DNA of 64,000 nt from Oligoflexia bacterium (GTDB lineage: Bacteria; Bdellovibrionota; Bdellovibrionia; Bdellovibrionales; Bdellovibrionaceae): NCBI GenBank assembly GCA_016861345.1, contig BOLD01000006.1:62001-126000 (forward strand), in the 5' to 3' direction. A program made the translations under genes and the position numbers. The notes below the pieces were generated by a model, which worked only from the letters and a program-made list of their open reading frames with translations, ran no database searches and was not told the origin of the DNA. Positions 24,399 to 31,025 of the stretch are shown one piece after another. Numbering within the stretch: the stretch's first letter is position 1; every line of letters begins with the position of its first letter.

Positions 24399-24674
24399 GT
24401 GCAAACTAAAGTACGAAGAGCGCGGTTATTTGATAAGCAGCTGCGAAAAGTGCCAGATTATATACAAAAGAAAGTAATGCTTTGGGTGTTTTTGGTGGAA
24501 AATAAAGGAATTGCGGTGGTCGCTGAATCGCCTGGTTTTCATGATGAACCTCTCAGAGGAGGTCGGTATGGGCAACGATCGGTGAGATTGAATAGGTCGT
24601 ATCGTTTAATTTATCGGGTCATTGAGGATAGAGTATATATTGAGTTACTGGAGGTTCACAAACATGACTACTAG
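24399..24674 (+). CDS. higB: HigB-like toxin (RelE/ParE superfamily mRNA interferase)
   Basis: 91 residues, GTG start 5 nt after AGGAG. The fold is that of RelE/HigB: N-terminal KVRRARLFDKQLRKVPDYIQKKVMLW helices, then four strands including EPLRGGRYGQRSVRLNRSYRLIYRVIED and YIELLEVHKHDY. The conserved C-terminal E-V-x-x-H-x-Y catalytic motif and the LNRSYRLIYR strand are intact, so it should cleave mRNA at the ribosome. Toxin-first order and an XRE antitoxin downstream are diagnostic for HigBA. The toxin stop overlaps the antitoxin start by 11 nt. Confidence 0.9.
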   Translation: MQTKVRRARLFDKQLRKVPDYIQKKVMLWVFLVENKGIAVVAESPGFHDEPLRGGRYGQRSVRLNRSYRLIYRVIEDRVYIELLEVHKHDY

Positions 24675-24981
24675 AAGCACTTCGTATTTTGAAAAATTGG
24701 AAAGGCAATACGGATCACTCAGTTTTGGCAGTATGCTAAAGGCCTGGCGTGAGGCCGAGGAGCTTTCCCAGGCTCAGTTTTCGAAAAAATTAAAGCTTTC
24801 CCCGCAGAATCTCAACGATCTAGAAAAAGGACGTCGTATTCCAACGCCAACTCGTGCTGCCCAAATTGCAAAAAAGCTTGGCTTGCCAGCAATGGGCTTA
24901 ATTCAACTGGCTCTGCGCGACCAGCTGCTATCAGCAGGCTTTCACTTTGAAGTGATTCTTAAAGAAGGCCGAGCTGCTTAG
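24664..24981 (+). CDS. higA: HigA-like antitoxin (XRE helix-turn-helix)
   Basis: 105 residues. ATG 24664 with GGAGG upstream is used rather than 24622. The HTH_3 domain occupies about 20-75: SFGSMLKAWREAEELSQAQFSKKLKLSPQNLNDLEKGR with the recognition helix SPQNLNDLEKG. The C-terminal part (LIQLALRDQLLSAGFHFEVIL) probably contacts the toxin. It should neutralise HigB and repress the operon through the 21-bp palindrome. Its last 23 nt overlap the 3' end of the convergent mtaD-like gene, showing how tightly the module is fitted between chromosomal genes. Confidence 0.9.
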   Translation: MTTRSTSYFEKLERQYGSLSFGSMLKAWREAEELSQAQFSKKLKLSPQNLNDLEKGRRIPTPTRAAQIAKKLGLPAMGLIQLALRDQLLSAGFHFEVILKEGRAA

Positions 24982-28086: not shown

Positions 28087-28296
28087 AGGGCGCCTCCAGT
28101 CTTTGCTATGGTATAAAGCCACAGCTTTTTATCATTATAACAATGGGTTGGATCTTTTTCAGGTCAAGGCCGGTCCAGATTTTATCTAGTCTAATATTGA
28201 TGACTAGGCGCCGGGATTTGTGTCATTTCGAGATGTTAGATAATGAGACCTGACGATGATGATTTTTGTTTATATCTACTATAAAAAACATGTGAT

Positions 28297-28325
28297 TTGA
28301 CTATGTATATACAAGTATATACAAT
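28297..28325 (+). promoter_or_regulatory. Predicted promoter of the NTase/RHH module with a 20-bp palindrome
   Basis: TTGACT (28297-28302), exactly 17 nt, TACAAT (28320-28325). The palindrome TGTATATAC-AA-GTATATACA (28304-28323) fills the spacer and overlaps the -10. The predicted +1 falls on the A of the start codon at 28332, so the mRNA would be leaderless. The rest of the gap 28087-28296 shows nothing recognisable. Confidence 0.65.
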
Positions 28326-28331
28326 TAAAAA

Positions 28332-28817
28332 ATGCTCCTCTATGAAATCGTTGATGTGCTCAACGAAAAAAAAATTAAATTTGCCATCGTGGGTGGCTAC
28401 GCCTTAGCCCTTCAGGGTATCATTCGAGCAACGATTGATGTGGATGTTGTGCTCTCTCTTTCTCTGAGTGAATTTGAGGCCGCAGAAAAGGCTCTTCGCG
28501 ACATAAAATTACAATCTCGAATTCCTGTGCGGGCAAAAGACATCATTACGATGAGAGAAGAGTACATCAAAAATCGAAATCTCATTGCCTGGTCCTTTGT
28601 GGATTATCAAGATCCCTCTCGCCAAGTGGATATTTTGATCACCAAAGATGTGCGTGATTTAAATGTCGAAAAAATCTCTGTCGGAAAATATAAAATTCCC
28701 GTGGCTAGCCTTGAAGATCTGTTGAAAATGAAAATAAACACAGGTCGTCCCCAAGATCTTGTGGATGTCGCCAATATTAAAGAGAAGCTGAATGAAAAGA
28801 AAAACAATAAAAAATAA
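28332..28817 (+). CDS. Minimal nucleotidyltransferase, AbiEii/MNT-like putative toxin
   Basis: 161 residues. The DNA polymerase beta-type nucleotidyltransferase core is complete: VGGYALALQGI (Gly-Gly motif), TIDVDVVLSL (catalytic Asp-x-Asp) and PSRQVDILI (third Asp). The C-terminal LEDLLKMKINTGRPQDLVDVANI is the usual substrate-domain signature of AbiEii-like and DUF6036-like proteins. There is no Shine-Dalgarno sequence and the predicted transcription start coincides with the ATG. It overlaps a ribbon-helix-helix gene by 26 nt; this order and operator suggest a toxin-antitoxin or defence pair in which the NTase modifies tRNA or protein (inference). Confidence 0.82.
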   Translation: MLLYEIVDVLNEKKIKFAIVGGYALALQGIIRATIDVDVVLSLSLSEFEAAEKALRDIKLQSRIPVRAKDIITMREEYIKNRNLIAWSFVDYQDPSRQVDILITKDVRDLNVEKISVGKYKIPVASLEDLLKMKINTGRPQDLVDVANIKEKLNEKKNNKK

Positions 28818-29031
28818 TCCAGCCTTGTCACTGACCCCAGAGCAGGCCGTTCGCTTTCTCGAAGACATTCGATTAATGCAAGCAAATATCAATGAGCCAT
28901 CAGTTCCCATTAGCATTCGGATTCCGGGAAACTTGCTCAGGGCCTTAAAGCTGAAGGCAGCCAATGATGGGAAGAAATATCAGTCGCTGATTGTTGAGTA
29001 CATCCGTAAGGGATTACAGGAGCGGTCGTAA
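28792..29031 (+). CDS. Ribbon-helix-helix (CopG/BrnA-like) putative antitoxin
   Basis: 79 residues, SD AGAGAAG 5-6 nt upstream, inside the NTase reading frame. The C-terminal half is a ribbon-helix-helix: PISIRIPGNLLRALKLKAANDGKKYQSLIVEYIRKGL (strand, then helix A starting at P-G-N-L-L, then helix B with the YQSLI core). The N-terminal ~35 residues are variable and may bind the partner. It probably represses the module through the 20-bp palindrome. It ends 1 nt before the convergent metalloprotease stop. Confidence 0.8.
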   Translation: MKRKTIKNNPALSLTPEQAVRFLEDIRLMQANINEPSVPISIRIPGNLLRALKLKAANDGKKYQSLIVEYIRKGLQERS

Positions 29032-29032
29032 G

Positions 29033-30211
29033 TTATTTTTTATAATTTTTTATTAACTCAGCCCAATGCTCAGGCAGTGCCTTAGTGCCGTCGCCCCCAG
29101 AAGACATAATATTGCCATTATTGTATTCGGTCACATAATTGCAGGTGCTGGGCTCAAAAGTGGCATAGTAGTAATCCCGAAATCCAAGCACGTGCCCAAA
29201 TTCGTGGGCAATAGTAAAAAGGTCATCATGATCGTAAAGTTGCATCGTGCGCTCATTAAAAGAGACATAGGCTCTTTCACCTAAAACTTCGCTCACAAAA
29301 ATTTGATAAACCTGCGAAGCTACGGAATAGAAATCAAATTTGATTTTGTATTGGGCATCTGTATTCCAAATGGATTCAAGGTAATTTGTGACTTTATTGG
29401 CCTCATCTCCAAAAATGCGGCCGTCCACAGGAAGATAAAGCTCTTTGCCTCGAAGTTGAATGGTGTCATTGATGTGGAACTTGTATCGGTTTGCATTTCG
29501 AAGCGTACGCTTATGCAACCGCTCAAGGTATTCTCGTTTTTTATCCTTTGCGATGTCGGGTTGGTTCAGGCGTTTGAAAAGGGAAAATTCGGGTCCATCA
29601 TTAAAATAGGCTTTTTCATCATCGTTGATTAGGGGGGAAAGACATTGGGGATCATTTAGGCAGGCATCAACTTTGTCATGGGCCGATTGAATGATAGCTT
29701 GTCGAGATCGTGAAAGGCCAAAATTTGCGTAATTAAGGAGCCTGTTCTCGTCATCAGTGACAATTCCTCGGGCTCGATGATTGAGCTTGACCCAGTTTTT
29801 ATCGATGGGTGTGTTTTGAATTTTTTTGTATGCATCGATGATAAAGTTCCAATTTTTAGAGTATGAGTCCCATCTGTTTTCTGCCGCTTCTGGGCTTTGC
29901 TCAGTGTAAAATGTGAATTTATTAATTTTATGAGCGATGAGGTTCTGATTTTTCCCAAGAGATTCTTTTTCAATTTTTTCAATTTCAGCACGCTTGGATT
30001 CAAGATCTTGAGCAATTTGAAGAATCATTGGTTTTCGATCAACATCACAGTGGTTAAATGCGATCCACCACTCATTTTCGTTGTAGATTTCTTGAATCTT
30101 TTTAACAAGATCACCTTGGTAAATGCCGACATTTCCAGAGGGCTGTTTATCGGAGTTATTTTTCTGACAAGCCACAAAGCCAAAACATAATAAAACAAGT
30201 AAAATTCGCAT
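29033..30211 (-). CDS. Lipoprotein zinc metalloprotease, metzincin-like
   Basis: 392 residues. A short signal sequence ends in the lipobox LCFGFVAC. The mature part is mostly helical and charged up to about residue 300; strands follow. The zinc motif is HEFGHVLGFRD (HExxHxxGxxD, last ligand Asp) with a plausible Met-turn, GNIMSSGGDG, about 25 residues later. HExxHxxGxxD with Met-turn is the metzincin arrangement; the N-terminal domain I do not recognise. Expected location is the outer membrane or surface. Cysteines (NHCDVD, DACLNDPQCLS, STCNY) probably form disulfides. A convergent RHH gene ends next to it. Confidence 0.8.
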   Translation of the reverse strand: MRILLVLLCFGFVACQKNNSDKQPSGNVGIYQGDLVKKIQEIYNENEWWIAFNHCDVDRKPMILQIAQDLESKRAEIEKIEKESLGKNQNLIAHKINKFTFYTEQSPEAAENRWDSYSKNWNFIIDAYKKIQNTPIDKNWVKLNHRARGIVTDDENRLLNYANFGLSRSRQAIIQSAHDKVDACLNDPQCLSPLINDDEKAYFNDGPEFSLFKRLNQPDIAKDKKREYLERLHKRTLRNANRYKFHINDTIQLRGKELYLPVDGRIFGDEANKVTNYLESIWNTDAQYKIKFDFYSVASQVYQIFVSEVLGERAYVSFNERTMQLYDHDDLFTIAHEFGHVLGFRDYYYATFEPSTCNYVTEYNNGNIMSSGGDGTKALPEHWAELIKNYKK

Positions 30212-30338
30212 CGGGGTCCCCTCCCAAGTGGGTTAGTGTTTACCATGTGCAGAATGGGGTGAAGAAATAACTTTTGAGAATTGCAGCATTGTCGAAAGGT
30301 TTGACAGGCAAATCCTACAAAAGAGATAACTGGGGGCC

Positions 30339-31025
30339 ATGAATTCTCAAGAAACAATCAAGATCAATTCCTCGTGGCGAAAACATCTCGAAGATGAGTT
30401 CGCAAAGCCTTACATGAAGGATTTAAAAGATTTTTTAAAGGATGAATACACGAAAGGGAAAACGATTTACCCAAAGGGTAGCGAGTACTTTGCTGCTTTT
30501 GATTTGACCCCTTTTGATCAAGTCAAAGTTGTGATTCTTGGTCAAGATCCCTATCACGGGCCGGGTCAGGCTCATGGACTTTGTTTTTCTGTACAAAAGG
30601 GTGTGGATTTGCCGCCATCGCTTGTGAATATCTACAAAGAACTGGAATCAGATTTGGGCTATCCGCCGCCCAAGCACGGTCATCTTGAAAAATGGGCTCG
30701 CGAGGGAGTGCTTCTGCTCAATGCGGTTCTCACCGTTGAAAATGGAAAAGCAGCGTCTCATCAGGGAAAAGGGTGGGAAACTTTTACGGATGCTGTGATT
30801 CGAAAGTTGAACGATGAGCGAGAAGGAATTGTTTTTATTCTTTGGGGCTCGTACGCACAGAAAAAGGGCGCCTTTATTGATCGCAAAAAACATTTTGTGA
30901 TCGAGTCTCCACACCCTTCGCCGTTATCGTCATACCGCGGCTTTTTTGGATCAAAGCCCTTTTCTCGAACGAATCAGTATTTAATTTCAAGGGGCTTAAA
31001 GCCCATCGATTGGAAAATCGAGTGA
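30339..31025 (+). CDS. ung: Uracil-DNA glycosylase
   Basis: 228 residues, full family-1 length. VVILGQDPYHGPGQAHGLCFSV carries the catalytic Asp and uracil pocket; LLLNAVLTVENGKAASHQGKGWETFTD and SPHPSPLSSYRGFFGSKPFSRTN contain the DNA-intercalation loop HPSPLS with the catalytic His. It excises uracil from DNA in base-excision repair. The stop overlaps the start of the oligopeptidase B gene (TGATG), forming a two-gene unit with no obvious functional link. Confidence 0.97.
   Translation: MNSQETIKINSSWRKHLEDEFAKPYMKDLKDFLKDEYTKGKTIYPKGSEYFAAFDLTPFDQVKVVILGQDPYHGPGQAHGLCFSVQKGVDLPPSLVNIYKELESDLGYPPPKHGHLEKWAREGVLLLNAVLTVENGKAASHQGKGWETFTDAVIRKLNDEREGIVFILWGSYAQKKGAFIDRKKHFVIESPHPSPLSSYRGFFGSKPFSRTNQYLISRGLKPIDWKIE

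Follow-up and report, generated by a model that had tools for sequence, protein, structure and literature searches.

A mobile nucleotidyltransferase and ribbon-helix-helix gene pair with a conserved, apparently leaderless operator-promoter, probably a type II-like toxin-antitoxin module

Toxins of the nucleotidyltransferase (NTase) type are already known; work on the ones acting at the ends of tRNA is recent, and they are paired with antitoxins that differ greatly from one another. In MenAT1 of Mycobacterium tuberculosis, the antitoxin MenA1 (68 aa, without a DNA-binding domain) is encoded upstream of the toxin, and its residues 1 to 32 suffice for antitoxicity (PMC10435456). MenT1 has a phospho-acceptor, T39, and an active-site residue, D41 (PMC10435456; PMC11375011); MenA1 induces phosphorylation of T39, and the system is reported to lack autoregulation (PMC11375011). 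In AbiE systems, AbiEi is a winged-helix COG5340 protein, and four motifs define AbiEii, with motifs I and II reading hG[G/S] ... R-x-T-x-D-x-D and motifs III and IV consisting of a Lys followed by a +DxxD-like acidic motif (PMC3985639). Among listed pairings, AbiEi_4.AbiEii appears in excerpts of PMC6504116, and excerpts of PMC2701414 give the NTase pairing as MNT-HEPN, with ribbon-helix-helix (RHH) proteins placed beside other toxins.

Here, we describe an NTase gene followed by an RHH gene in a window of 64,000 nucleotides of an Oligoflexia bacterium genome (GCA_016861345.1, contig BOLD01000006.1; Table 1). The two genes lie on the same strand and overlap by 26 nt. We consider it probable that they form a mobile, type II-like toxin-antitoxin module that is autoregulated and leaderless. 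The type II features found are two small overlapping genes and mobility, together with, at the level of sequence, an RHH domain and a conserved box pair over the promoter. We infer that gene 1 encodes a MenT/AbiEii-like toxin that, by analogy, would add nucleotides to tRNA 3′ ends and stop translation, and that the overlapping gene 2 encodes a two-part antitoxin whose N-terminal helix would bind and silence the NTase. The C-terminal RHH domain would dimerize on two tandem 8-bp GTATATAC boxes, each box taking one dimer and both dimers lying along one face of the double helix. Because the boxes overlap the promoter and nearly touch the ATG, bound antitoxin would block transcription from the predicted start of a leaderless mRNA and keep the pair low, and loss of the antitoxin would both free the toxin and derepress the operon.

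Table 1. Positions of features of the NTase-RHH locus in the window
Feature	Positions	Strand	Remarks
Extra segment (NTase, RHH, metalloprotease-like gene)	28123..30338		Empty site in relatives
-35 hexamer TTGACT	28297..28302	+	
20-bp palindrome TGTATATAC-AA-GTATATACA	28304..28323	+	Covers first four bases of the -10
Operator box 1, GTATATAC	28305..28312	+	Self-complementary 8-mer
Operator box 2, GTATATAC	28315..28322	+	Self-complementary 8-mer
-10 hexamer TACAAT	28320..28325	+	Spacer to -35 of 17
NTase gene, predicted toxin	28332..28817	+	161 aa; predicted leaderless start at ATG 28332
T34-I-D36-V-D38 of NTase	28431..28445	+	From profile alignment with MenT1
Third Asp, D100, of NTase	28629..28631	+	Invariant, 64/64 rows
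K134 ... R139-xx-D142-xx-D145 of NTase	28731..28766	+	AbiEii motifs III and IV
RHH gene, predicted antitoxin and repressor	28792..29031	+	79 aa
Antitoxin N-terminal helix, residues 16-30	28837..28881	+	Predicted toxin-binding part; helix in model
C-terminal RHH domain, about residues 36-77	28897..29022	+	Predicted operator-binding part

The locus shares with MenAT1 the NTase family, the T-x-D-x-D core, and antitoxicity needing little beyond one helix (known for MenA1, predicted here); it differs in that the antitoxin gene comes after the toxin gene, its product includes an RHH domain, and a conserved operator accompanies the pair. The C-terminal RHH domain recalls the antitoxins of BrnTA and CopG_antitoxin (PF14384, PF12441). 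However, BrnT is an RNase-like toxin, whereas the partner here is an NTase of polymerase-beta fold. With AbiE the locus has in common NTase motifs I to IV, a DNA-binding antitoxin gene, and inverted repeats over the promoter (PMC3985639), but its partner is an RHH protein and not an AbiEi-type (COG5340) antitoxin; no AbiEi-type gene was seen beside the window NTase or in the downstream open reading frames (ORFs) listed for its relatives. Likewise, MNT-HEPN is a mobile two-gene NTase module (PMC2701414), but the partner here is RHH, and no HEPN protein stood by the NTase in the ORF lists examined. The first-pass annotation, made from sequence, was thus right that the partner is RHH rather than AbiEi or HEPN. 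In the open-access literature searched, which is not proof, no description of an NTase-RHH toxin-antitoxin pair was found, nor any paper on DUF6036. What appears to be new is that a MenT/AbiEii-like NTase is paired with an antitoxin bearing an RHH domain, under a conserved operator-promoter that seems to be leaderless.

Several lines of evidence place the NTase among the MenT/AbiEii-like proteins. Its Pfam matches over the respective cut-offs are DUF6036 (1e-6), AbiEii (3e-6), and DUF2204; AbiEii scored 27.6 bits against a cut-off of 22.5, and DUF6036 was the better fit at 29.2. Among 64 members of the family, DUF6036 was matched by 52 and AbiEii by 24. NCBIfam returned nothing for the NTase. 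With the 64-row alignment A1 as query, the top PDB profile match was MenT1 (8an4; E = 4e-8), in which T34 falls opposite the phospho-acceptor T39 and D36 opposite the active-site D41. NTase alignments leave out four loci with a broken NTase (L048, L059, L061, L065), and A1 also leaves out L021 and L066. Invariant in the 64 rows are G21, R32, T34, D38, D100, K134, D142, and D145, and G22, D36, and R139 are kept in at least 90%. With GG at 21-22, DVD at 36-38, and the third Asp, the protein has motifs I-II and III-IV of MenT/AbiEii (DUF1814), all four AbiEii motifs being kept, and the intact DxD plus third Asp noted in the first-pass annotation are indeed present. The AlphaFold model (pLDDT 93.8) has as its nearest solved folds TM1012, MenT1, LnuA, and ANT(2′′). 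The best reading of the protein is a MenT/AbiEii-like predicted toxin.

The RHH protein gave a CopG_antitoxin match (PF12441) of 2.5e-5, under the cut-off, and, in NCBIfam, only a weak BrnA match (14.7 bits vs a cut-off of 60); within its family, PF12441 was matched by 44 of 51 members and BrnA_antitoxin by 29 of 51 (E ≤ 0.01). The structure model (pLDDT 86.6) has a helix at residues 16-30 and an RHH region from about residue 36. A fold search with this model alone gave nothing at E ≤ 0.001, only weak RHH matches such as Arc. The helix is retained in members without the RHH domain, and it gave a weak profile match to the helix-only partners described below (26 columns, probability 53%; profile-versus-profile E of 1.4e-4 in one comparison). 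We take the helix as the predicted neutralizing part, by analogy with MenA1 and because it persists whenever the toxin is intact, and the RHH part as the predicted repressor of its own promoter because RHH goes with the operator across loci.

In a variant of the toxin-antitoxin reading, not exclusive of it, helix binding would not be the whole of antitoxicity, and the RHH protein would prompt the NTase to phosphorylate its own T34. The invariance of T34 and its alignment with the MenT1 phospho-acceptor favor this variant, as does the precedent of MenA1-induced T39 phosphorylation (PMC11375011). However, T34 may be kept for catalysis alone, and the antitoxin helix did not match MenA1 in PDB searches with profiles A2 or A3. 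We hold the variant to be conceivable but doubtful.

The pairing extends well beyond the window. An NTase match (E ≤ 0.001) was found in 120 of the 368 genomes of the phylum, and 70 loci (L003 to L072) around the stronger matches were examined, after L002 (the same locus as L009) and L001 (an own-genome PF01909 match, unrelated) had been dropped. The NTase-RHH gene order, for which the first-pass annotation had proposed a database search, was recovered in 59 of the 70, with an RHH protein of the window family downstream of the NTase (profile E < 1e-15) and reading frames that mostly overlap phylum-wide. The same annotation had named NTase homologues without an RHH neighbor as counterevidence, and 11 such loci exist. 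The reading survives them because nine form a separate, more distant clade with helical partners, L058 keeps the helix alone, and L059 is decayed. In each of the nine (L062-L064, L066, L067, L069-L072), a short helical partner carries a similar helix motif without an RHH domain; in L066 the partner frame has no usual start codon before the motif. These NTases and that of the cyanobacterial plasmid pGM02, where the short helical partner lies upstream, resemble the window NTase at about 28 to 34% identity; the nine loci differ in having no RHH domain and no GTATATAC operator. In a cyanobacterial plasmid locus (L176, 1344-1917), a distant NTase is overlapped by a short helical protein whose annotation, "toxin secretion, membrane fusion protein," is probably wrong.

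Phylum-wide, the RHH profile gave whole-family matches (E down to 6e-18), then a gap, then mostly RHH-only matches (from 5e-13). An all-species scan, which reaches close relatives only, found one Bdellovibrio locus. The plasmid search returned a single NTase match, in a cyanobacterium (28.6%), and none for the RHH protein; the phage search returned no NTase match; and viral contigs held one distant NTase relative, with no RHH partner seen by eye in its ORF list. On this comparative evidence, the NTase-RHH pair is a real conserved module of the phylum to which the predator Bdellovibrio belongs.

The module also appears as an extra segment. The genes bordering it in the window are direct neighbors in 11 of 11 relatives examined; one border gene (153 aa) is conserved in 65 of 66 family genomes, and the other, named by eye from its sequence, is a uracil-DNA glycosylase. 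Fifteen of the closest among the 70 loci (53 to 100% NTase identity) have no homologous flanking ORF in common (E ≤ 1e-8), and the NTase tree interleaves loci from different taxonomic families, e.g., f9 and f1. A repeat search of 28100-30360 found no terminal repeats flanking the inserted segment, and no RNA families were found around the locus. Taken together, the empty site and the unshared flanks indicate that the cassette is mobile. The segment also holds a metalloprotease-like gene (29033-30211, minus strand; HEFGHVLG motif by eye), with relatives (E ≤ 1e-39) in only four other genomes of the 66 family genomes searched.

Decay of the module runs in one direction. The RHH gene is intact and the NTase broken or gone in seven loci (G139, G179, G327, G198, G073, G199, and G361), and the reverse was found in none (7:0; sign test, P = 0.016); draft-genome errors may inflate the broken NTase class, although a single direction is not expected of them. 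Both genes are broken in G202 and G264, and G149, cut by a contig end, stands outside these counts. Within the RHH clade, no intact NTase was found without at least the antitoxin helix: L017 has a stop between helix and RHH domain, L058 has the helix alone, and the NTase is intact in both. Mobility and one-sided decay favor a toxin-antitoxin role, and to this extent the first-pass suggestion of a toxin-antitoxin or defense type holds; its defense part found no support, as neither protein matched a PADLOC family at E ≤ 1. In G179 (L161, minus strand), the RHH gene stands alone, its ATG preceded at about 10 nt by one GTATATAC box, and this orphan is possibly a remnant antitoxin under the old promoter.

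These observations also bear on a different reading, in which the NTase is not a toxin, e.g., an adenylyltransferase that modifies antibiotics or other small molecules, and the RHH protein is an autoregulator, the two having spread as a resistance cassette. The top structural matches include LnuA and ANT(2′′), Aminoglyc_resit was matched by 18 of 64 NTase members (E ≤ 0.001), and toxin-antitoxin-like operons can be resistance systems, a warning given in a passage of PMC2701414. Yet AbiEii/DUF1814 motifs III and IV are kept, the helix is kept where the RHH domain is lost, and a lone repressor would have little reason to survive in the seven loci that lost the NTase. A resistance cassette is thus an unlikely account of the locus.

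Under the toxin-antitoxin reading, the RHH protein would act on the box pair 5′ of the NTase. In general form this pair is GTATATAC-NN-GTATATAC, with AA as the spacer in the window, where no other such site exists even when 3 mismatches are allowed (shuffled sequence predicts 0.03). The centers of the boxes are 10 bp apart, one helical turn, an arrangement suited to two RHH dimers side by side because each half-site is itself palindromic. Such boxes are like the tandem 8-bp boxes of MetJ. The 20-bp palindrome of the first-pass annotation is present, but it does not lie wholly between the -35 and the -10, extending into the latter.

The box pair (at most 2 mismatches) was found 5′ of the NTase in 54 of 59 RHH loci vs 0 of 11 loci without RHH (Fisher, 2e-9; since the loci are related, this and the other tests overstate independence); in the latter, the best candidate had at least 6 mismatches. 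The 54 comprise 53 tabulated rows, including L035 and L054, in which the box pair runs into the ATG, plus L061, which has no start; the rows leave out L061 and the five loci without a recognizable match: L047 (cut by a contig end), L048 (insertion), L053, L056, and L068. In the tree labels, L035, L047, and L054 were set as operator-bearing by hand, L047 remaining outside the 54. L058 sits inside the RHH clade of the NTase tree and lacks both RHH domain and operator. Of 368 genomes, 44 contain the exact motif, each of them once, and 42 of the 44 sites are located at the module, in some cases at a decayed copy (G198; G199, which has an insertion); a reversed control of the motif had 0 occurrences in the same genomes. 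The other two exact sites (G061/L075 and G067/L076) are orphans that lack the module and probably reflect chance. Of 28 viral-contig loci with the exact box pair, none had an NTase or RHH relative (E ≤ 1e-3). The RHH modules at L053 and L056 (both G052) and at L068 have no recognizable GTATATAC pair and may use a different operator.

The first-pass annotation had read TTGACT-N17-TACAAT as a promoter whose +1 is the A of the start codon. Its geometry was borne out: six bases separate the -10 from the ATG, so that this A is the base reached by a start 7 nt past the -10. Translation of the NTase from any point upstream of this ATG is precluded by an in-frame TAA (28326-28328). Promoter-like sites in 28100-29200 numbered 6 vs 3.7 (SD, 2.0) in shuffles, and the window promoter alone shows no clear excess over chance; its weight comes only from conservation. 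Across the 53 operator loci, the distance from box end to start codon is 6 to 11 nt in 31 and -2 to 3 nt in 18; the outliers are L009 (13 nt) and L008, L017, and L043 (32 to 43 nt). The -10 occurs in three registers: TACAAT at the end of box 2, TATACT in box 2, and TATACT in box 1. A TTG lies 16 to 18 bp 5′ of the -10 in 13/15, 11/16, and 9/18 loci, respectively, whereas shuffling of the upstream bases gave on average 0.92, 0.66, and 0.75 and at most 5; overall it is present in 33 and absent in 16 of the 49 class A1, A2, and B loci. Since TTG stands at this spacing in each register, the -35, an element external to the boxes, follows the position of the -10. Of 50 near-box loci, 1 (L042) had a ribosome-binding-like site, vs 3 of 3 far-box loci (L008, L017, and L043; P = 1.7e-4) and 21 of 64 control ORFs (at least 200 aa, same loci), by a crude motif test with first ATGs as control starts and related loci, so that the P values are guides only. 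Promoter geometry and missing ribosome-binding-like sites favor a leaderless NTase start. Leaderless starts would not be universal in the family, because the three far-box loci combine their distant boxes with a ribosome-binding-like site.

Those three loci also fit the alternative that the locus is a toxin-antitoxin module with a normal mRNA leader, the promoter-like sequence being operator only. The -10-like bases could be a free by-product of the TATATAC boxes, and the promoter of the window taken singly is not clearly above chance. This alternative is, however, hard to square with a -35 TTG that is no part of the boxes and keeps 16 to 18 bp from the -10 in whichever register, or with boxes that in most loci reach the ATG or come close to it, 49 of the 50 near-box loci lacking a ribosome-binding-like site, and we rate an ordinary leader as improbable. 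That an unrelated NTase and RHH gene are chance neighbors beside an accidental palindrome has virtually no probability, given a pair found in 59 of 70 loci with the operator in 54 of those 59, mostly overlapping frames phylum-wide, and one natural fusion; the motif count in 368 genomes and the co-occurrence of operator and RHH refute it, and nothing in its favor was found.

A bolder form of the preferred toxin-antitoxin reading would see in these loci an element of about 40 bp, present phylum-wide, that fuses operator, promoter, and start codon, with a leaderless toxin gene first and an antitoxin that joins a MenA1-like helix (maybe the trigger of T34 auto-phosphorylation) to an RHH repressor. 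We regard this full form as rather unlikely. If true, toxin synthesis would require intact 70S ribosomes while standing outside the controls on ordinary initiation, the antitoxin would gain two functions by the joining of helix and RHH, and some lineages would have gone further, to a single-protein fusion (G208) or to a dead NTase-RHH protein that is possibly a domesticated regulator (G161-G163). In any event, the operator predicted at 54 loci is easily testable, the natural truncations among the 51 aligned antitoxins separate the presumed neutralizing helix from the DNA-binding domain, and predicted leaderless genes are densely represented in the family.

In G208 (L021, 1501-2187, plus strand), NTase and RHH are fused in one frame of 229 codons, and the operator is kept. 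In G161 to G163 (genus g8), an NTase without GG and DxD motifs is fused to an intact RHH domain (L166, 1496-2137, minus strand; L167; L168, 1426-2067, minus strand); this catalytically dead fusion is perhaps a domesticated toxin-antitoxin regulator. An FtsE-like ABC gene, named by eye, lies near the fusion in L166 and L168, and in G161 an intact AbiEii-like NTase gene directly follows it. In L027 (L172, 1578-2318, plus strand), the RHH antitoxin is extended by a cpYpsA SLOG domain (PF12694; 1.4e-59). Finally, the window contains a second likely toxin-antitoxin pair at 24399-24981 (plus strand), in which a 91-aa ParE/YoeB/HigB-like protein (weak matches, under Pfam cut-offs) overlaps an HTH_3 regulator (3e-13).
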